The notes beneath the pieces are model-generated. The model was not told where the DNA came from, did no database searches, and worked only from the letters and a program-made list of their open reading frames with translations. Positions 5,568-45,154 of a stretch of DNA of 46,938 nucleotides are shown here, in pieces (positions within the stretch are counted from its first letter, which is position 1; each line of letters begins with the position of its first letter). Location of the stretch: positions 1 to 46,938 of the IMG/VR virus record IMGVR_UViG_3300019754_000113; one strand, written 5' to 3'. The DNA is from a virus. The translations under genes and the position numbers were made by a program.

Positions 5568-6155
5568 TTACCTCACTAAACTATTTCGTACATCTTGCTG
5601 CGTAGCTTTTATATAGCCTGATGTCGTGGAATAATTCCTATGACCTATAAAAAGTTGTGCAACTTCTGGCACTACATTATTATCTATAATCATTTCAGTT
5701 AAAATCCCACGTCTGAAAGAGTGAGTTCCATAATCTGGATCATTTAAAGCTTTTTTAATATAGCTATTAAGTGCATTTGTAAAAGAGATAATATTTAAAC
5801 TTTTGTTTTTGTTGTTCCAAGCATTTAAACAATATCCATCCGAGTGATGCAAAGAAGATTCAAAAACTTTTTTGATTTGTTTTACTGCTTTATCTGAAAA
5901 TTCTATGGTCCTAAATTCTTGACCTTTAAAACGTGCTGTTTTACTCATAAGTAATTTAACTTTTTGAGTCCTGATAATAGATTCTATGTCCTCACCTTTT
6001 AGTTTTAAAACTTCATTGATTCTGCAGCCTGTATAGTATAAAAAAGTAAAAGCTTTTAAATACTTTTCTTTTGTTGCAGCTCTTAGGTCGTGATCGTTTT
6101 CCATATATTCAAGTAATTTTTTATACTCTTTTGTTTTAATTGCTTTTTTACTCAT
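5568..6155 (-). CDS. Minimal Xer-type tyrosine recombinase
   Basis: A 195-residue tyrosine recombinase consisting of the catalytic domain only. All active-site residues are visible: Arg45 (GCRINEVLKL), Lys72 (MSKTARFKG), His145 and Arg148 (GTHSFRRG), His172 (GHRNYS) and the nucleophile Tyr181 (SGYIKAT). The N-terminal core-binding domain of usual XerC/D or phage integrases (about 100 residues) is absent. I start at the ATG at 6153-6155, behind AGGAGGAAA. With parAB nearby, dimer or multimer resolution of an episome is more likely than classical integration; integration cannot be excluded. It lies behind a terminator, with a candidate parS just upstream. Confidence 0.85.
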   Translation of the reverse strand: MSKKAIKTKEYKKLLEYMENDHDLRAATKEKYLKAFTFLYYTGCRINEVLKLKGEDIESIIRTQKVKLLMSKTARFKGQEFRTIEFSDKAVKQIKKVFESSLHHSDGYCLNAWNNKNKSLNIISFTNALNSYIKKALNDPDYGTHSFRRGILTEMIIDNNVVPEVAQLFIGHRNYSTTSGYIKATQQDVRNSLVR

Positions 6156-6178
6156 AATTTTATTTCCTCCTGGTTTAT

Positions 6179-6196
6179 AATTTCGCATGCGAAATT
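6179..6196. promoter_or_regulatory. Candidate parS/operator palindrome, copy 2
   Basis: Identical 18-bp palindrome. On the minus strand it is followed directly by ATAAAC and then the recombinase ribosome site, the same arrangement as copy 3. It could therefore also act as an operator next to a promoter -10 (TATAAA). Confidence 0.65.
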
Positions 6197-9562: not shown

Positions 9563-10225
9563 TTATGCTAAATCTGCCATATTGTAGATAACTTTTCCTA
9601 GAATTTTAATATCTTCATCATGTACAGATACTTCTTCATCTGGGTATATTGTATTGTCTGATCTTAGAAGTATTTTTTCACCTCTTCTTTTGAAGATTCT
9701 TTTTACTCTTATTTCCTCACCATATTTTAAAACATAGATTCTATTATCTTCAACTTCTGTATCTTTTGTAGATACAAAAATAATATCATTTTCTTTTATT
9801 GTTGGAGTCATACTATCACCATGAACTTTTATAGCATCTATTTTTCCACTTTTTACATTCATAGTAACTAATGCTTTTGGTAATGAAATTACTTCTATTT
9901 CAGATTCATCATCATTAAAATATCCATTCCCTGCAGCTGCTTTAATATTTGGATAATAAGAAACTGCATATCTTGAACCATTGTCATCGCCAAATGCTTT
10001 TGCAATTGGACCAGATGGTTTATCAAACATTTCACCAATTCCAAGAAGTAACCATGATGCACTAATACCTGTTGCTTTTTCTATATCAGATGCTATTTCT
10101 GGTGTTATTTTTTTTCGTGCAGTAGCCATTGCTTTGATAATAGATAAGTTTGTATCTAGCTTTTCTGCTAACTTTTCATACGTTATACCTAATGCTTTTA
10201 ATGCTTCTTTTAATCTTTTTTCCAA
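9563..10225 (-). CDS. LexA/CI-like S24 phage repressor
   Basis: A 220-residue repressor with a TTG start (10223-10225) behind AAAGG. Residues 1-60 form an XRE-type helix-turn-helix (TYEKLAEKLDTNLSIIKAMA). The C-terminal half is an S24 peptidase-like domain: self-cleavage site Ala98-Gly99 (KAAAGNG), catalytic Ser138 (VHGDSMTPT) and Lys175 (EEIRVKRIF). It should maintain lysogeny and be cleaved after RecA activation in DNA damage, de-repressing the divergent replication promoter at 10272-10300. The inverted TTGTCA/TGACAA around that promoter is a candidate operator. Confidence 0.9.
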   Translation of the reverse strand: MEKRLKEALKALGITYEKLAEKLDTNLSIIKAMATARKKITPEIASDIEKATGISASWLLLGIGEMFDKPSGPIAKAFGDDNGSRYAVSYYPNIKAAAGNGYFNDDESEIEVISLPKALVTMNVKSGKIDAIKVHGDSMTPTIKENDIIFVSTKDTEVEDNRIYVLKYGEEIRVKRIFKRRGEKILLRSDNTIYPDEEVSVHDEDIKILGKVIYNMADLA

Positions 10226-10421: not shown

Positions 10422-10470
10422 TTGTTTGAAAAACTAAACTTACTACTACAGTTCTTATAATCAAGTCCAT
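10390..10470 (-). CDS. Antisense micro-ORF across the hairpins (doubtful)
   Basis: On the minus strand hairpin 2 reads as a ribosome site (AAGGTGGAGG) and ATG opening a 26-codon ORF starting MDLIIRTVVVSLVF, which ends inside hairpin 1. The hydrophobic N-terminus is toxin-like. The same ribosome site in hairpin 1 gives only five codons. No minus-strand promoter is evident, so this may be a by-product of the anti-Shine-Dalgarno loop. Confidence 0.25.
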   Translation of the reverse strand: MDLIIRTVVVSLVFQTIHIIKSKSTS

Positions 10471-10517
10471 TAGTTTCCTCCACCTTAACTAGTGGATTTG
10501 GACTTGATTATGAGAAC
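10451..10517 (+). promoter_or_regulatory. Leader hairpin 2 with anti-Shine-Dalgarno loop
   Basis: Second copy of the 56-bp block (10457-10512), 95 bases downstream of the first, with 18-base arms differing at one pair. Loop CTCCACCTT is at 10478-10486. The outer arm bases differ between the two copies but remain paired (CAC/GTG versus CTT/GAG with one wobble), suggesting the fold is maintained. Confidence 0.75.
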
Positions 10518-10545
10518 TAACAAAATTAAATATAAGGTGGAGCTT

Positions 10546-10566
10546 ATGAAGAGAGATCACAAATAA
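10546..10566 (+). CDS. Six-codon leader peptide coupled to the initiator
   Basis: MKRDHK starts 3 bases after the strong AAGGTGGAG (10534-10542) and its TAA overlaps the initiator ATG (TAATG). The initiator has no comparable ribosome site of its own, only a purine-rich stretch inside this ORF. Translation of the peptide probably controls initiator synthesis, as repY does for repZ in IncI-type plasmids (analogy). Confidence 0.5.
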   Translation: MKRDHK

Positions 10567-11768
10567 TGGAACATTGGATTAATATAAATCAGAAAAGAAC
10601 ACATGAGTGGAATATATCAACTCATGAAGCTATTTTATGCTCTTTTTATTCAAATGAGCATAAATGGGTTAGAACTAGAATACCTGATGAAAATGGCGAT
10701 TATTTATGTATTGCTATTACTAAATTAATCAAAGAATTACCTCTTATTGGAAAATCAAAGAAAAACTTCTCTAAATCTCTAAATTCTCTTACAAAACTAA
10801 ATATATTTGAAAAAATTATTGATGAAGATAATCAAAGAACTGTATTTTATAGAATGAATTATTTATACAAATCATATTGGAAATACCCAACTTTAGTACT
10901 TGCTAGTGATTTAAAAACTAAAAATATTGGTATTGTTAATATTGAAGAAATGAAACAAGTGTTACCAAATGGAAACAGTATGTCCAAATTGACACAGGTG
11001 TTTCCATATATTCTTGAAGTGTGTCCAAATGGAAACGAAGTGTGTCCAAATGGAAACGAAGTGTGTCCAAATGGAAACCTATCAAATAAACAATCAAATA
11101 AACAATCAAATAAACATAATCATAGGGAAGATGAAAAAGATGATTCTTTAAAAAATACAACAAAAGAAAATCTAGCTAAAAAAGAGTTTGATAGAATTAT
11201 TGAAATATATCCATACACAGTAAATAATTCACCAAAAATTTTAGCACTAGCTTTTGGTTCATATTTAAATCTATCTCAAATCCAAAAAGCTGATTTATTC
11301 AAAGCAGTTAAAAACTACAGCAAAACTAAACAAGTAAAAGATCATATTGCTAAGGGAACTACGAACTTCATACAAAACTTGAACAACTTTATCACTAAAA
11401 GCTTTACAGAGTTTATACATGGATTACCGGAAAAGTTTGCATACGCAGAAGAGTTTGAACCTAAAAAAAATCCAAATGGGGCGGCGAGTACCTTTGCAGA
11501 TGTAACAGTATTTAATGGACCAGATAAAGATTCTGTTTCGTTAAAACCATATATTGCAAAATTTGAACAGGTAAAAAGAATACTTGAAAATGATGAAAAC
11601 TTTGATGTTAAAAATTGTGATGATTATGATGATTCTAAAATGAAAGAAATATTTGATGCAAAAGAATATGAGATTTTTAGCAAACGAATGGGGTGGCTGC
11701 AGTTTGCATATAAATATACAACAGTACAACTTGCAGACACTATGAATGATTATTTAGGAGAAAGGTGA
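10566..11768 (+). CDS. Iteron-containing replication initiator (lambda O-like organisation)
   Basis: A 400-residue protein. The first 110 residues look like a winged-helix initiator domain (THEAILCSFYSNEH, then KSLNSLTKLNIFEK and a basic wing). The middle (about 150-185) is low-complexity because the DNA there encodes repeats VCPNGNE three times and SNKQ-type repeats. The C-terminal half is helical and could contact the helicase. Iterons plus an AT-rich block inside the initiator gene, and a DnaB-type helicase gene downstream, are the layout of lambda O and of many plasmid/phage replication modules. I infer origin binding and helicase loading. Confidence 0.8.
   Translation: MEHWININQKRTHEWNISTHEAILCSFYSNEHKWVRTRIPDENGDYLCIAITKLIKELPLIGKSKKNFSKSLNSLTKLNIFEKIIDEDNQRTVFYRMNYLYKSYWKYPTLVLASDLKTKNIGIVNIEEMKQVLPNGNSMSKLTQVFPYILEVCPNGNEVCPNGNEVCPNGNLSNKQSNKQSNKHNHREDEKDDSLKNTTKENLAKKEFDRIIEIYPYTVNNSPKILALAFGSYLNLSQIQKADLFKAVKNYSKTKQVKDHIAKGTTNFIQNLNNFITKSFTEFIHGLPEKFAYAEEFEPKKNPNGAASTFADVTVFNGPDKDSVSLKPYIAKFEQVKRILENDENFDVKNCDDYDDSKMKEIFDAKEYEIFSKRMGWLQFAYKYTTVQLADTMNDYLGER
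10959..11116 (+). other. Putative replication origin: iterons and AT-rich repeats
   Basis: Three perfect 21-bp direct repeats (11019-11039, 11040-11060, 11061-11081; the last differs only at its 3' end) share core GTGTGTCCAAATGGAAAC. Two diverged copies lie upstream (10959-10979 and 10978-10998). Directly after them are three perfect 12-bp repeats ATCAAATAAACA (11081-11116), a likely DNA-unwinding element. This matches the iteron plus AT-rich design of theta origins. Confidence 0.8.
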
Positions 11769-40086: not shown

Positions 40087-40731
40087 ATGGCTAAAAAATA
40101 CCCACAAGAATTAAAAGAAAGAGCAAAAGATTATATCCAGGTACATGGATATACTTTTGAAAAAGCAGGTGAAGCTTTAGGTATTCCAAAAAATACCATC
40201 AATGATTGGAGTAGAGCAGATGCCAATGGTAAATGGATTAAGGGTAAATATACTGAAAAGATAGAAGAAGTAACAGATGAACTAAGAAATGCTATGCGCG
40301 ATCATCCTATATGGAAAACTGTTAAAGAAAAGATGTTAGCTGAAATAGTTGCAGAAAGTCCTAACGAAATGGCTTTAAGTGTAGAAGAAAAAGTAATTGC
40401 AAATAATAGATCAGAAGCTTTAATCATGGAAGCTATGAGTATTGAGAACTTTGATTTAATGGCTTTAGAAGGTGTACAACTTGCAAATAAAAAACTGCAA
40501 TATTTAAAACTTCAAGACAATATGAAAAATGTTCCAATGGGTGAAATAAAAATATATAATGATATTGTAGCAAATGTAAAAAATCAAGTACATGGAAAAG
40601 CACCAGATACAATAATCAATATAGCAAACCAAAACAATATGGCAAATCAAGTTGATTATTCATCTTTATCACAAGATGATTTAATGAAAGAATTACAGAA
40701 GATTGAACAAAAAGAAAATATAGTTTTATAG
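40087..40731 (+). CDS. Probable small terminase subunit
   Basis: A 214-residue protein. Its first 55 residues form a helix-turn-helix (ELKERAKDYIQVHGYTFEKA, GEALGIPKNTINDWSRA), as in small terminases that recognise pac or cos DNA; the rest is helical with an Asn/Gln-rich linker and acidic end (DDLMKELQKIEQKEN). It is the last gene of the head block. The large terminase is 3 kb away on the opposite strand, so this assignment is moderately sure; a transcription regulator is the alternative. Confidence 0.55.
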   Translation: MAKKYPQELKERAKDYIQVHGYTFEKAGEALGIPKNTINDWSRADANGKWIKGKYTEKIEEVTDELRNAMRDHPIWKTVKEKMLAEIVAESPNEMALSVEEKVIANNRSEALIMEAMSIENFDLMALEGVQLANKKLQYLKLQDNMKNVPMGEIKIYNDIVANVKNQVHGKAPDTIINIANQNNMANQVDYSSLSQDDLMKELQKIEQKENIVL

Positions 40732-40765
40732 TGTTAGCTATCCGTTAAAATAGCTAACAGTTTTT
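40732..40765 (+). terminator. Intrinsic terminator of the head block
   Basis: Ten-bp stem TGTTAGCTAT/ATAGCTAACA with an 8-base loop and TTTTT, directly after the small-terminase stop codon. It may also bound the minus-strand micro-ORF transcript. Confidence 0.85.
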
Positions 40766-40776
40766 GTGTGGTACGA

Positions 40777-40857
40777 TTATTTATCTTTAAAAAAATGCTT
40801 AATTTCTTCTTTGAAAAAAATACAAATACCAACAAACAATGAAATTATAACTTCCAT
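40777..40857 (-). CDS. Micro-ORF B: 26-residue membrane peptide
   Basis: A 26-codon ORF with one hydrophobic helix (MEVIISLFVGICIFF) and a charged tail (KEEIKHFFKDK). It lies just downstream of the terminator of small RNA B. The AGGA ribosome site lies within a 14-bp palindrome TCCTATATATAGGA, which can hide it, as in type I toxin mRNAs. A second, GTGGAGG, lies 24 bases upstream. The same RNA-terminator-micro-ORF order occurs at 43356-43620. Confidence 0.5.
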   Translation of the reverse strand: MEVIISLFVGICIFFKEEIKHFFKDK

Positions 40858-40906
40858 GATTTGTCCTATATATAGGATACCTCCACCGCAACCCAACTAA
40901 ATGACC

Positions 40907-41016
40907 AAAAAAAAAGCTTCGCAAAAAAATGCGAAGCTTTATATATATAAGCACAAAAACTTTTGATATTTAAAGTCTAGTTAACGCTAGACTGTTTCAG
41001 CCTTATAAATAAGGTT
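40907..41016 (-). ncRNA. Small RNA B (about 110 nt)
   Basis: The extended -10 TGATATAAT (41031-41023, minus) gives a start near 41016. The RNA has hairpin CCTTATTTATAAGG, linker with GAAACA, hairpin AGTCTAG-n-CTAGACT followed by TTAAA, and an intrinsic terminator GCTTCGCA-n-TGCGAAGC with nine U residues (40937-40907). It is homologous in layout and partly in sequence to small RNA A (AAACAGTC, then GAC, then TTAAA), with different stem bases that remain paired. Confidence 0.65.
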
Positions 41017-41032
41017 AGGGTAATTATATCAT

Positions 41033-41236
41033 AAAAAATAATATCCCCATATTTACGGGGATATTTATCAAAGTTCATCATTTGTTTTGTAAATTTTAAG
41101 TCCAATTAGAGTTAGACTATTTTAAAGTCTAGTTAGCGCTAGACTGATTTATATAGCAACACAAGAACGAAGCCAACAGAACTACTTTTTTTAAGTTTAT
41201 TTTGACCAAAAATAAACAGTTTATCTAAAAAAGATA
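41033..41236 (-). ncRNA. Small RNA C (about 200 nt)
   Basis: The same extended -10 TGATATAAT (41251-41243, minus) precedes hairpins TTATCT-n-AGATAA and GTTTATTTT-n-AAAATAAAC followed by TTAAA. It then has two hairpins of the type AGTCTA-n-TAGACT/AGTCTAA-n-TTGGACT, each followed by TT(T)AAAA, and terminator AATATCCCC-n-GGGGATATT with a U-run (41065-41033). It lies head to tail with RNA B. No supportable ORF inside. Confidence 0.6.
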
Positions 41237-41254
41237 AGTTATATTATATCACAT

Positions 41255-41446
41255 TTAAACCACCTCCTCTATATTTTTAATATCATTTATAATATTTCTA
41301 ATATTATCTGACAAAACCATAACACCACTTGTAAAAGTATCTTCATCAAAGTTGTTTAAATACATCATACCATTTACTAAAAAGTCAATACCTTTTAGTT
41401 TATCTGCTATCTCTTCTAAATCTATTTTTGAAACTTGTGTACTCAT
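41255..41446 (-). CDS. Hypothetical 63-residue protein
   Basis: A small acidic, helical protein (SKIDLEEIADKLKGIDFLVN, LSDNIRNIINDIKNIEEVV). Its start is two bases after the antirepressor stop, so it is cotranscribed. This type of small helical protein often accompanies phage antirepressors, but no family is recognised. Confidence 0.55.
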   Translation of the reverse strand: MSTQVSKIDLEEIADKLKGIDFLVNGMMYLNNFDEDTFTSGVMVLSDNIRNIINDIKNIEEVV

Positions 41447-41448
41447 GA

Positions 41449-42225
41449 CTAAGCCTTTATATTTATATTTTCTATCATTTTTAAAGCACCTTCTAAATCT
41501 ACATTTTTTAAATGATAATATGAAGATACACCAAACTCACTATTTATATAAGAGTATATAGCTCTTGTGATGCTTTGAAAGTTTGTATCTGTTCCATCAC
41601 ATAAAACTTTTGCTCTATTGTTTATATATTCTCTTATAAGGTCTATACTTTTTGGATGAAGTCCATCTTGTGTTTCTCTTATCTTTATTGTTTGGTCTGC
41701 ACACATATTTAATCCACCATTTATAATAACAACATCTCTTTTTATAGTTTTCAAATCTTGCTGCATATTTGCAAAACCTGCTAACATCTGATGTAAGCCT
41801 TTATTCATTTCAGTTATATTTGAAATAAGCTCTTGATTTGATTGAACTATTTGTTGATTTACTTTTGCCATTTCTACAATAGCAGGAAGTATATCGTTTT
41901 GTTGTGTTTGAACTTGAGTTAGTTTCTTTTCTGCTTCAATAAAATACTTTCTAACTTCTTTACCTTTTTCAGTTCTTGAAGCCATAGCTATATGTTTTGC
42001 CATGTCTAGTGTCAATACATATTCTTTTAAAGTTTGACGATTAACTTTTTGGGTAAACGTCACATAATCTGTATTTTCCTCTAACCCCAAACTTTCAATT
42101 TGATGTTTAATCCAATTCCCAAATTGTTTTTTGATACCAAGATTAGTCCAAAGTTCTCTACTGTTCACAGAATTTGTAGTTTCTGCACCAATCATTTCTT
42201 TTTTTATTTCAATTACCATTGACAT
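41449..42225 (-). CDS. AntA/ORF6C-type phage antirepressor
   Basis: A 258-residue protein. The N-terminal 100 residues match the AntA/AntB antirepressor domain (NSRELWTNLGIKKQFGNWIK, EYVLTLDMAKHIAMASRTEK, GKEVRKYFIEAEKKL). A coiled coil follows (NQELISNITEMNKGLHQMLA) and the C-terminal 90 residues fit an ORF6C-like domain (SIDLIREYINNRAKVLCD, YHLKNVDLEGALKMI). Antirepressors relieve CI-type repression; the target is presumably the repressor at 9563. It is expressed divergently from the regulator at 42377. Confidence 0.88.
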   Translation of the reverse strand: MSMVIEIKKEMIGAETTNSVNSRELWTNLGIKKQFGNWIKHQIESLGLEENTDYVTFTQKVNRQTLKEYVLTLDMAKHIAMASRTEKGKEVRKYFIEAEKKLTQVQTQQNDILPAIVEMAKVNQQIVQSNQELISNITEMNKGLHQMLAGFANMQQDLKTIKRDVVIINGGLNMCADQTIKIRETQDGLHPKSIDLIREYINNRAKVLCDGTDTNFQSITRAIYSYINSEFGVSSYYHLKNVDLEGALKMIENINIKA

Positions 42226-42253
42226 TTCAATCCTTTCTATTAAGTATTTGTTA

Positions 42254-42361
42254 TTTAACTTTTTAACTAAAGAAGTATTACATGTTAAACCTTAATCCAA
42301 TATAAAGAGAAGTATTACATATTAAACTTTTTTATACAATATTGTTAAATATGTAATATTT
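42254..42361. promoter_or_regulatory. Operator-like repeats between antirepressor and regulator
   Basis: TTAACTTTTTAACTAA (42255-42270, also at 8359-8374) is followed by GTATTACATGTTAAAC (42275-42290) and GTATTACATATTAAAC (42312-42327) in direct orientation, and a diverged inverted copy at 42344-42359 that overlaps the promoter spacer. They are probable binding sites for the adjacent regulator. Confidence 0.65.
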
Positions 42362-42370
42362 TGATAGAAT
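42342..42370 (+). promoter_or_regulatory. Promoter of the 70-residue regulator, likely leaderless
   Basis: TTGTTA (42342-42347), 17-base spacer, extended -10 TGATAGAAT (42362-42370). The expected start is at 42377, the A of the ATG, so the mRNA would be leaderless; no ribosome site is visible. Confidence 0.65.
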
Positions 42371-42376
42371 ATATTT

Positions 42377-42589
42377 ATGATTAAAAATATAATATATAAA
42401 GACATAGCAAAGTATGTAAATAAATCAGAACAATCCATAAAAGGATACAAAGTCAATAATCCTGAATTGCTTGAGATTTTAAAACTTGGTTCATTTTGTA
42501 AGAAAAATGATTTAGATATAGAAAAGATTAAAAAGCTAATAGAAGTAAAACAAATGTTTTCTACTGAAAAACAAAAAGATGAATTTTAA
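42377..42589 (+). CDS. Small putative DNA-binding regulator (paralogue of 8498)
   Basis: A 70-residue protein with a likely helix-turn-helix (YKDIAKYVNKSEQSIKGYK) and a charged C-terminal helix (LDIEKIKKLIEVKQMF). The second half aligns with the 64-residue protein at 8498, and both have similar promoters and operators. It is probably translated from a leaderless mRNA, as lambda cI is from PRM. I infer a regulator of the divergent antirepressor and of itself. Part of its 3' end is duplicated at 42946-42992. Confidence 0.65.
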   Translation: MIKNIIYKDIAKYVNKSEQSIKGYKVNNPELLEILKLGSFCKKNDLDIEKIKKLIEVKQMFSTEKQKDEF

Positions 42590-42683
42590 ATATTTAACAG
42601 AAAGGTTTAAAGCTTCTTTTGTTATAACTTTAATAGTTATTATAATTTATAACTTATATCAATTTACTAAAGGACTTTTATGA
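42579..42683 (+). CDS. Small membrane protein (34 residues)
   Basis: A 34-codon ORF starting MNFKYLTERFKASF with one hydrophobic helix (FVITLIVIIIYNLY). It overlaps the end of the regulator gene by 11 bases and its stop overlaps the next ATG (ATGA), so it is coupled on both sides. It may act with the lipoprotein in superinfection exclusion. No family recognised. Confidence 0.5.
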   Translation: MNFKYLTERFKASFVITLIVIIIYNLYQFTKGLL

Positions 42684-42886
42684 AATACTTGATTTTAGTT
42701 ATATTTGCTCTTTTGTTTTTAGGATGCGATAAAAAAGAAACATGGGGATTATACAAATATCCAGATGAAAGACTTGTACACTTTGAACACTTTATAGATA
42801 ATAGAGGTAAGTGTTGGGAATATGCTAAATTTTTAAATGATAAATATACAAGTGGAAATACTGTAATTAGATGTTATGAAGAATAA
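42680..42886 (+). CDS. Small lipoprotein, possible superinfection exclusion
   Basis: A 68-residue protein with a signal and lipobox (LLFLGC, Cys at residue 16). The mature part contains two more Cys (RGKCWEYAKF, VIRCYEE) that could form a disulphide. Lysogeny-expressed small lipoproteins often block receptors against related phages, and it lies in the same transcript as the regulator, so expression from the prophage is plausible. This is inference from type and position. Confidence 0.65.
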   Translation: MKYLILVIFALLFLGCDKKETWGLYKYPDERLVHFEHFIDNRGKCWEYAKFLNDKYTSGNTVIRCYEE

Positions 42887-42894
42887 AACCGTAA

Positions 42895-42992
42895 CTTTCC
42901 CAATTGCAGCGATAATAATACTTTTGATATTTATCTTATTAAAATAAAAAAGCTAATAGAAGTAAAACAAATGTTTTCTAAAGAAGATAAAA
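42895..42992 (+). pseudogene. Duplicated 3'-end fragments of two neighbouring genes
   Basis: 42895-42947 closely repeats 43243-43296, the end of the 97-residue membrane protein gene (FPIAAIIILLIL). 42946-42992 repeats 42530-42564 and beyond, the end of the 70-residue regulator gene (KKLIEVKQMFS). Only the tails are present, so this is debris from a duplication or recombination of a regulator/membrane-protein pair. Confidence 0.75.
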
Positions 42993-43001
42993 AGGATTGA
43001 T

Positions 43002-43295
43002 ATGACAACAGAAGATATTTCAGCATTGATTGTTTGGGGAATACTTATTTTTAGTGTTGGATATACGATAAATGTTTTTTCTCAACCTAAAGCAGATAAA
43101 GATGGATATGCAAGAGTTGATATTCAAAAATATAAAGATGGTTCTGGAGATTTTTTTAGTGCATTGGGTTCATTTATAATAGGAACATTAAAAGTTATTG
43201 GAGCATTAATCTTAATTGGATTATTAATATGGCTAGTAGTAGCTTTTCCAATTGCAGCTATAATAATACTTTTGATATTAATATTACTAAAATAA
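43002..43295 (+). CDS. Membrane protein (97 residues)
   Basis: A 97-residue protein with helices near the N-terminus (ALIVWGILIFSVGYTINVF) and two at the C-terminus (ALGSFIIGTLKVIGALILIG, WLVVAFPIAAIIILLIL), separated by a charged loop (QPKADKDGYARVDIQKYKDG). It is behind AAAAAGGATTG. It may be part of an exclusion or lysogeny-conversion set with the neighbouring small membrane proteins; no family recognised. Confidence 0.6.
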   Translation: MTTEDISALIVWGILIFSVGYTINVFSQPKADKDGYARVDIQKYKDGSGDFFSALGSFIIGTLKVIGALILIGLLIWLVVAFPIAAIIILLILILLK

Positions 43296-43319
43296 ACAAC
43301 TCTCTTAATAGAGAGTTGT
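43296..43319 (-). terminator. Hairpin after micro-ORF A
   Basis: Nine-bp stem ACAACTCTC/GAGAGTTGT with a 6-base loop, followed on the minus strand by TTTATTTTA. A second hairpin CTTAGAA/TTCTAAG (43325-43345) lies just upstream on that strand. Confidence 0.6.
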
Positions 43320-43355
43320 AAATCTTAGAATTGGTAGTTCTAAGAAAGATAAATT

Positions 43356-43448
43356 TTATTTTATTGCAAATAATTTCTTAAACATACAGATTATTAAATC
43401 TATAAGTTTAGGACTAATTGCAACAATAATTGCTTCAAATAGAGTCAT
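43356..43448 (-). CDS. Micro-ORF A: 30-residue membrane peptide
   Basis: A 30-codon ORF with a clear ribosome site AAAGAGGAG. The peptide has a hydrophobic N-terminus with a central Pro (MTLFEAIIVAISPKLIDLII) and a basic end (CMFKKLFAIK), a pattern like Fst/Ldr-type type I toxins. It lies downstream of small RNA A and its terminator and upstream of two hairpins. It parallels micro-ORF B. Confidence 0.55.
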   Translation of the reverse strand: MTLFEAIIVAISPKLIDLIICMFKKLFAIK

Positions 43449-43502
43449 TAGAACTCCTCTTTGTAATACTACCCCGTACCCAAGACACACTTTATGCAAC
43501 CC

Positions 43503-43620
43503 AAAAAAAAAGCCCAAACTAATTAAAGTTTGAGCTTGTACTACAAAGAGTATTTGAAGCTAATTTATCTTGATTGCTTTAAGTCATCTACCAAATGACT
43601 GTTTCCACCTTGTTTAAGGT
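43503..43620 (-). ncRNA. Small RNA A (about 118 nt)
   Basis: Extended -10 TGATATAAT (43635-43627, minus). The RNA has hairpin CCTTAAACAAGG, GGAAACAGTC, hairpin GTCAT-n-ATGAC followed by TTAAA, and a terminator GCTCAAACT-n-AGTTTGGGC with nine U residues (43535-43503). Promoter, AACCTT stem, AAACAGTC and TTAAA are shared with small RNA B, while the stem bases differ but stay paired. After the terminator both loci share GGGTTGC and then a micro-ORF. Confidence 0.65.
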
Positions 43621-43642
43621 TACGAAATTATATCATAAAAAA

Positions 43643-45154
43643 CTAAATCCTCCAACCCTTACCAACTTTTTGTCTTGGTGTAACTCTTTGTTTCTTAGGT
43701 TTATCTTTTTTACCTGCTCTTATATCTGGGTTTGTTACTGCAATTGCAAGACATTCCATACAATCATCTTTTGGACTATCTTTTGCAGGATCAAAACTTT
43801 TAAGTTCTCTTTTTAGTTGGTCCAATCCGTTTGCAGTTCTTTTGAATTTTATTTGACCTGTTAAGAAATATGGTTCACAACATTCTATAATATGGTTTTT
43901 ACTAGCACCCTCTTTTTTAGCACTTAGTTTATATATTCTATTTTTTAAAGTTTCTTGTCCTTTTGATTTTAATAATGTATTTATCTTGATTATTGCATTA
44001 TGAAGTTGTTGAATAACTAAGTGTCCACCACCTGCAAGTTCTATCCATACAGGAGCATTTTTATATTTAATCATAGCATCAAGTATTCTATTTATAAAAT
44101 CATCAAATCCCCAGATTCCATAAAACACATCATGAACTATAAATAGTTCCATATCATCTTGTTTTGAAATACCAATTGGTACGATTGCTCTATTATCTGC
44201 AGTTTTTTTTGTACTCATAGCAGAATCTACTATGATATGTATTCTTTCATCTTTTGGTATATCAAACTCACCAATATACGAAAACATTTCTTCTTTATAA
44301 AAATCACCATCTATAGTTTCAGGTTCTTGCTGATACTGTGCAGAAAATGAAGATGCTAGTTCTGTTTTCTTTTTTTCAATAGCAGCAATATCTTCATAAA
44401 CTTCATATAGTGGTTCGTTTGCTTCTCTTTGATATTTAAACTTTCCTATTTCATAAACAATAGGTCTTGACTCTAAGGCTTTTAAATTTAGATGGAAAAA
44501 TCCTAACTCTTTTAAATATCCTGCAAGGTCCTTTGGATTTAATCGCTGCATAATACAACCAATAAAATCTTTCCTTCTTGATGCAAGAGAATCAGTATAA
44601 AAACTAATAGATGTGTTAATTGCAGCTAAAGAGTTTCTTTCACTAGCTTTGATTGGATCATCTATAAATATTCCACCACCAGGAGCATGTTTACCTGTAA
44701 CAACACCACCTGTACCTGTTGCAAAAACACCACCACCTTTTGTAGTTTTCCATTCAGTTTCTTTATCTTTTGTATTTGATACGACTGTATCTTGAAAAAT
44801 ATTTTGATATGCAGGATGCTTTATAATAGTTCTAGCTTCACCCGATACTTCACCCGATAAATCTGAACCATAAGAAGTATAGATATATTTTGATTGTGGC
44901 TTAACACCTAATCGCCAAGTAATAGCAGAAGTAGTCATCATAGTTTTTCCATAAGAAGGTGGAATAGTAATAAGAAAATCAGTAATATTTCCTTCAAAAA
45001 CTTGATGATATAATTCTGCTATATATCCATGAAACCAAGCTTCCAAGAAAGGTTTTTCATATACGTTTTCTATTACATACCTTGTATATTCAAGAATTGA
45101 CTTTTTAGCCAATTCTCTTCTTATAAGCTCTTTTTGGATTTCATATTTATTCAT
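43643..45154 (-). CDS. Large terminase subunit
   Basis: A 503-residue packaging motor. The ATPase has a Walker A variant PPSYGKT (about 64-70), Walker B GIFIDDP (about 160) and the coupling region after it. The C-terminal nuclease domain has Asp in HIIVDSAMS (about 307) and acidic residues DDCMECLAI (about 469), followed by a basic tail. It pairs with a small subunit to cut and package concatemers. On the opposite strand from portal and capsid genes. It is probably coupled to the 70-residue gene upstream (3-base gap). Confidence 0.92.
   Translation of the reverse strand: MNKYEIQKELIRRELAKKSILEYTRYVIENVYEKPFLEAWFHGYIAELYHQVFEGNITDFLITIPPSYGKTMMTTSAITWRLGVKPQSKYIYTSYGSDLSGEVSGEARTIIKHPAYQNIFQDTVVSNTKDKETEWKTTKGGGVFATGTGGVVTGKHAPGGGIFIDDPIKASERNSLAAINTSISFYTDSLASRRKDFIGCIMQRLNPKDLAGYLKELGFFHLNLKALESRPIVYEIGKFKYQREANEPLYEVYEDIAAIEKKKTELASSFSAQYQQEPETIDGDFYKEEMFSYIGEFDIPKDERIHIIVDSAMSTKKTADNRAIVPIGISKQDDMELFIVHDVFYGIWGFDDFINRILDAMIKYKNAPVWIELAGGGHLVIQQLHNAIIKINTLLKSKGQETLKNRIYKLSAKKEGASKNHIIECCEPYFLTGQIKFKRTANGLDQLKRELKSFDPAKDSPKDDCMECLAIAVTNPDIRAGKKDKPKKQRVTPRQKVGKGWRI

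Follow-up and report, generated by a model that had tools for sequence, protein, structure and literature searches.

What do the promoter-hairpin-terminator units beside the terminase gene of a phage of Campylobacter-related bacteria produce, and what would their products be for? The window analysed here is a phage DNA of 46,938 nucleotides (nt; IMG/VR record IMGVR_UViG_3300019754_000113), of which the stretch 40777-43620 was examined on the minus strand. The original prediction described three units there, A, B and C, as a family of small RNAs, two of them followed by a micro-open reading frame (micro-ORF), and left it open whether they are terminator-attenuated toxin-like peptides, regulators of other mRNAs or decoys of a defence system. 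Units A and B turn out to be two copies of one module, whose leader is antisense to the start region of its own micro-ORF and also pairs over 10 bp with the 3' side of the message, neither of which had been part of that prediction. It is fairly probable that they are RNA-regulated membrane-peptide modules, most likely of a toxin-antitoxin kind, which keep a partition-carrying prophage in its host.

Unit A (43296-43635, minus strand, as are all parts of the three units) starts with the extended -10 promoter TGATATAAT at 43627-43635, and the extended -10 pattern TGNTATAAT is conserved at the equivalent position in homologues. Two 5' hairpins, ACCTT-AAGGT and AGTCATTTGGTAGATGACT, occupy 43582-43620 according to folds, alignment and a model match, and the second is by alignment and model match the homologue of the family 5' hairpin CCATTTGGTAGATGG. 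They are followed by ten leader bases termed LDI-5' (AAGATAAATT, 43562-43571), by a linker (GCTTCAAATACTCTTTGTAGTAC, 43538-43560) that complements the Shine-Dalgarno (SD) region and codons 4-8 of the micro-ORF, and by a predicted intrinsic terminator with an 11-bp stem and T9 (43503-43537). A GG/G-rich block with the SD region GTAGTATTACAAAGAGGAG (43449-43502), listed together with a predicted start-codon hairpin GAGT..ACTC, leads into the micro-ORF (43356-43448), whose 30-residue product, MTLFEAIIVAISPKLIDLIICMFKKLFAIK, is a predicted membrane peptide with a basic C-terminus. The ten bases after its stop codon, LDI-3' (AATTTATCTT, 43346-43355), are the predicted partner of LDI-5', and a terminator-like hairpin is predicted at 43296-43319. 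The duplex between linker and start region reaches -46.2 kcal/mol (z -4.4; 0/300 shuffles), and leader and message are coupled with z values of -6 to -7 (0/200 shuffles, whichever way the sequence is shuffled). The folding z is -2.9 for the short RNA and -8.8 for the full read-through RNA.

Unit B (40732-41031) repeats this order, with the promoter TGATATAAT at 41023-41031, supported by sequence and alignment, and two folded 5' hairpins, CCTTATTTATAAGG and AGTCTAGCGTTAACTAGACT, at 40974-41014. LDI-5' (AGTTTTTGTG, 40952-40961) and its predicted partner LDI-3' (CACAAAAACT, 40759-40768) again embrace the module, and the linker TATATATATA (40940-40949) pairs, weakly and with low complexity, with CCTATATATAGG around the SD, as judged from fold, coupling and the rank of its own duplex. 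The predicted terminator (11-bp stem and T9, 40907-40940) is followed by GGTCATTTAGTTGGG in a G-rich block with the SD region (40858-40906), the part that links the unit to the wider family by blastn and lies in a locus recovered with E=1e-7 by a model built without window sequences. The micro-ORF (40777-40857) encodes 26 residues, MEVIISLFVGICIFFKEEIKHFFKDK, resembling the family peptide ...LFIAVIAVLVTLFREEIRKxLFKxKK, and the 3' hairpin (40732-40759) also looks like a terminator for the plus-strand gene 40087-40731. Folding z values are -5.0 (short RNA) and -5.7 (full read-through RNA).

The shared parts bear out much of what had been noticed from the sequence. TGATATAAT stands exactly at A, B and C; these are its three minus-strand copies in the whole window, one ahead of each unit, and the sole matches to the extended -10 TGNTATAAT on that strand. 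In A and B the second 5' hairpin carries AAACAGTC at its 5' edge and TTAAA or TTTAAA behind it, and the T9 terminator is followed by GGGTTGC, a ribosome-binding site, the micro-ORF of 26-30 codons and the 3' hairpin, in the order originally given. As words, these elements say little: taken by itself, the 9-mer TGATATAAT is no rarer than expected by chance (5 copies over the two strands vs 2.1 expected), AAACAGTC occurs twice vs 2.3 expected and GGGTTGC four times vs 1.1 expected. What counts is the placement of TGATATAAT and the arrangement of the parts, not the single words.

Relatives of the module are found in Campylobacterota. A blastn search of 397 Campylobacterota genomes with A and B joined gives many chance matches plus one real cluster on the stretch from T9-GG to ATTTAGTTGGG. 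The loci of this cluster carry a like promoter type, the 5' hairpin CCATTTGGTAGATGG, a linker, a terminator, a G-rich block and AAGGAGTCCATAATG, and their peptide has the form MELFNLFIAVIAVLVTLFREEIRKILFKSKK, which that of unit B resembles. A covariance model, the kind of search that the original prediction had proposed, detects 38 loci, which are spread over 25 of 395 Campylobacterota genomes. A second model of leader and terminator, built without window sequences and scanned over the window in full, has its top match at B (49.4 bits, E=1e-7) and its second at A (31.4 bits, E=4e-4) and does not find unit C. The unit is present on at least 20 Campylobacter plasmids, of Campylobacter jejuni, C. 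coli, C. helveticus and C. fetus; on these conjugative plasmids its usual place, on the opposite strand, is between trbL and trbF/virB8. An intact unit also lies between phage genes of the Helicobacter prophage BK070152.1; in this unit (L107:1348-1590, plus strand) the terminator hairpin includes GAGTCCATTATGGAC, which nearly mimics the unit's own start region, GAGTCCAAAAATGGAC. The model finds no unit in neighbouring phages whose terminases are related, the exact family pattern is absent from the viral contigs searched, and the unit A peptide has no match in phage records. Promoter-plus-hairpin patterns, tried as a means of finding relatives, gave no phage relatives and only chance genome matches, with equally many from a reversed control. 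No Rfam, Pfam or NCBIfam family scores above threshold over the module RNA or peptide.

The antisense relation between leader and message is maintained across this family by covariation. Each linker of 30 intact units was paired in silico with the start region of every unit; the duplex with its own start region averages -20.2 vs -10.2 kcal/mol for cross pairs (0/100,000 permutations), and it ranks first in 26 of the 30 units and second in unit B, even though the 14-nt linkers are all distinct (30/30). The 5'-3' pairing likewise tracks its own unit (-14.3 vs -8.9; 0/100,000 permutations), and a control leader segment put through the linker-type test gives no signal. The paired changes of stem bases noticed between A and B are real in the wider family, where 95% of cells are paired and 11 of 16 pairs in the first 5' hairpin and the terminator stem are changed on both sides (0/500 shuffles, with far lower values in slid controls). 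Of the 30 units, 29 are predicted to form a start-codon hairpin. A pairing between the G-rich block and the 3' hairpin loop was dropped, having no covariation.

The micro-ORFs appear to be translated. Throughout the family they encode peptides of 23-32 residues with one hydrophobic stretch, and the pooled ratio of nonsynonymous to synonymous change (pN/pS) is 0.33 over 45 non-independent pairs, which supports translation under purifying selection. The ORF is at the same time repeatedly lost: 12 of 33 matching plasmids, from C. jejuni, match only as far as the ORF start, and in the three read closely (L062, L105 and L108) one shared deletion has removed the ORF while promoter, leader and terminator are kept. 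Further deletions of the ORF are seen at L073, L081, L088, L097, L098 and L103, and an in-frame stop at L091. Natural broken variants of another sort are L083:1501-1580 (plus strand) and L085:1501-1580 (minus strand), in which the internal terminator is gone and the peptide is truncated before REEIR. The micro-ORF is unannotated in most records examined, and the 'hypothetical protein' annotated opposite the unit at 10453-10791 of NZ_CP037749.1 (L059 2493-2831, minus strand) is probably a spurious antisense frame. A promoter opposite the unit was sought as TGNTANAAT/TATAAT, the usual type only, and is absent from 28 of 29 units. Open frames of 48-102 codons lie opposite many units, in frames that differ across the T9 region, so there is no conserved antisense protein.

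The best reading of these data is a type I-like toxin-antitoxin module in a one-promoter, terminator-split layout of type III, with the terminated RNA as the antitoxin. A single promoter would drive both products. Most transcripts would end at the strong internal terminator as a short RNA of some 115-125 nt that carries the antisense linker, and rare read-through would yield the message for a membrane peptide of 26-30 residues. In this message the leader is predicted to fold back over the SD region and to pair with the sequence past the stop codon, and in unit A a small hairpin would cover the start codon; by these layers the full-length message is predicted to be silent. Translation into peptide would be confined to processed, leader-less messages, which the abundant short RNA, bearing the same linker, may silence in trans. 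If the element were lost, the short RNA would presumably decay first and the peptide would then harm the cell. The best sequence argument for action in trans comes from two paralogues in one genome, L043b and L055. Their identity is 98% over the ORF, 97% beyond it and 100% in the T9/G block, but only 69-76% in the linker, the terminator stem and the pre-SD region; divergence in these last parts is as expected if specificity matters in trans. Of the three meanings raised in the original prediction, the terminator-attenuated toxin-like peptide is the one well supported: the anatomy favours it, and so do the compensatory changes in about 30 homologues.

Several points weigh against this reading. 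The cis fold-back could silence the message alone, so that a trans antitoxin is not strictly needed; covariation by itself does not separate cis from trans. The peptide of unit A shows no recognisable homology to that of the family. Coupling between leader and message is weak in unit B (z -1.5 and -2.9), a weaker signal that is due to the low complexity of its linker TATATATATA, and B is the one unit for which no local start-codon hairpin is predicted. The pN/pS estimate is rough on ORFs so short, the ORF-deleted plasmids go back mostly to one clonal event, and some units are chromosomal and adjoin housekeeping genes, where maintenance has no obvious function.

Other explanations of the module differ in what they make of the short RNA and the peptide. 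A purely cis-acting leader, in which an attenuator and a ribosome-binding-site lock control their own message and the short RNA is a by-product rather than an antitoxin, is unlikely, though it has real points in its favour: the fold-back in the full transcript is strong, the ambiguity of the covariation serves it as well, and with the leader present the start region is a little less accessible (mean unpaired 0.29 in the full transcript, 0.36 in the leader-less one). Such a leader would, however, waste most transcripts at the T9 terminator; it leaves unexplained why leaders remain at loci without an ORF, and the way in which near-identical paralogues of one genome differ, mainly in the pairing segments and the terminator stem, is not required for pairing in cis. 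Less probable again is that the peptide is a small membrane regulator, for instance of conjugation, lysis or the envelope, expressed on relief of termination. Units inside conjugation operons and, in the window, beside the terminase gene would suit this role, the peptide is conserved, and its toxicity is inferred; on the other hand, repeated loss of the ORF with the leader kept, unrelated chromosomal sites and silencing in multiple layers are usual marks of toxic peptides (PMC6733600).

It is very improbable that the RNAs serve chiefly as decoys or as trans-acting regulators of other mRNAs, be they of phage or host. Their hairpin loops are exposed, and the adjoining ant antirepressor gene is of a kind known to be the target of the phage antisense RNAs c4 and sar (PMC12197685), yet the pairing of the short RNAs of A, B and C with ant, with ORF63 or with one another is no better than in shuffles. 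Among the targets tried, ant and ORF63 being the only ones outside the module, the sole significant one is the micro-ORF message of the unit itself, which is also the conserved, covarying target; the idea of regulators of other mRNAs is not supported by these tests, and the decoy of a defence system finds no support. Chance arrangement in AT-rich DNA, for which the ordinary frequency of the single words might speak, is refuted by the independent model that recovers A and B and by the absence of any equal among 100,000 permutations.

Compared with known systems, the module combines features that otherwise occur apart. The type I systems hok/sok and tisB/istR have a hydrophobic peptide, a silent primary message, antisense control and carriage on plasmids or prophages, all of which would apply here. 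The same likeness holds for Fst (PMC8167048). In all three, unlike the present module, the antitoxin RNA has a promoter of its own, in an orientation that is opposite, divergent or convergent. The c4 RNA arises by processing from the same transcript as its target and controls the synthesis of ant. As a short phage RNA pairing around the ribosome-binding site of the message downstream of it, c4 of phages P1 and P7 (PMC12197685) resembles the module, whose target is however the micro-ORF and not ant; the window has no Rfam match to the c4 family at the gathering score. Closest in host is aapA/IsoA of Helicobacter pylori (PMC6733600), a type I system of Campylobacterota with a membrane peptide of about 30 residues, in which 5'-3' pairing, here predicted, silences the full message, and an upstream anti-SD and small hairpins near the start cover the SD. 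A non-translatable full-length message is a hallmark of type I (PMC6733600). IsoA is, in contrast, a cis-overlapping antisense RNA, for which the usual promoter is not seen in 28 of 29 units here, and the module differs further in the intrinsic terminator inside its leader and in peptide sequence. The type III systems toxIN, abiQ/antiQ, tenpIN and cptIN share with it one promoter, an RNA that comes first, a terminator that sets the ratio between RNA and toxin, and a toxin ORF reached by read-through (PMC8167048), a layout that in the module rests on predicted promoter and terminator. Their RNAs consist of tandem repeats and bind an endoribonuclease protein, whereas the short RNA here has no visible tandem repeats and would pair in antisense with the message of a membrane peptide of 23-32 codons. 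No published description of the module was found in the literature searched, subscription journals lying outside the search, and its peptide motif occurs in no paper searched. The Campylobacter type I literature found names only CjrA of pVir; the family model finds no unit on that plasmid (L066), the CjrA sequence itself not being compared.

Unit C (41034-41251) was part of the family as first proposed, and here the proposal holds only for A and B, which belong together with the Campylobacterota loci. C is a predicted RNA with the TGATATAAT promoter, several hairpins and a predicted terminator (41040-41065); the folding z of its short RNA is -4.1. It has no convincing ORF, and as a third member it is rejected, since the family models do not recognise it. 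At 41094-41149 it holds two near-copies of the second hairpin of unit B, each with TTAAA behind it.

On the minus strand the window encodes ParB (1479-2261), ParA (2264-2923), a tyrosine integrase (5568-6188), a CI-like S24-type repressor (9563-10225), the AntA antirepressor, ant (41449-42225), and the large terminase (43643-45154), which adjoins unit A; DnaB helicase and ribonucleotide reductase are also encoded, and no end repeat that would show the DNA to be circular was found in the window. Given ParB, ParA, integrase and repressor, this may be a Campylobacterota phage-plasmid. Prophages with partition genes may persist as plasmids, and addiction modules are common there. The presence of ParA and ParB makes a maintenance role for the modules plausible. 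Between the terminase and the opposite operon, 41255-43300 forms a secondary immunity-like block with AntA on the minus strand and a small helix-turn-helix-like ORF (42377-42589) on the plus strand; direct repeats AGAAGTATTACATRTTAAAC at 42271-42344, in its divergent promoter region, are likely operators. Two long direct repeats of 86-89% identity (42524-42580 with 42941-42997, and 42891-42951 with 43239-43299) sit among small plus-strand ORFs, one of which is a 23-codon remnant of the membrane protein encoded at 43002-43295; the arrangement is read as duplication with decay.

The module looks like a previously unnamed one with a new layout of toxin-antitoxin system. We lean, by a small degree, towards a new class in which the terminated and read-through products of one promoter on one strand are antisense antitoxin and toxin message, the efficiency of the terminator sets their ratio, and diversification proceeds via a pairing segment of 10-14 nt, a class that would be widespread on Campylobacter plasmids, chromosomes and prophages. 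If so, it would join the operon layout of type III with the logic of type I, and conjugative plasmids and prophages of Campylobacter would carry a maintenance module that annotation misses. Its roughly 30 naturally distinct RNA pairs would then offer a way to learn how a short RNA and an extended form of that RNA discriminate between one another.

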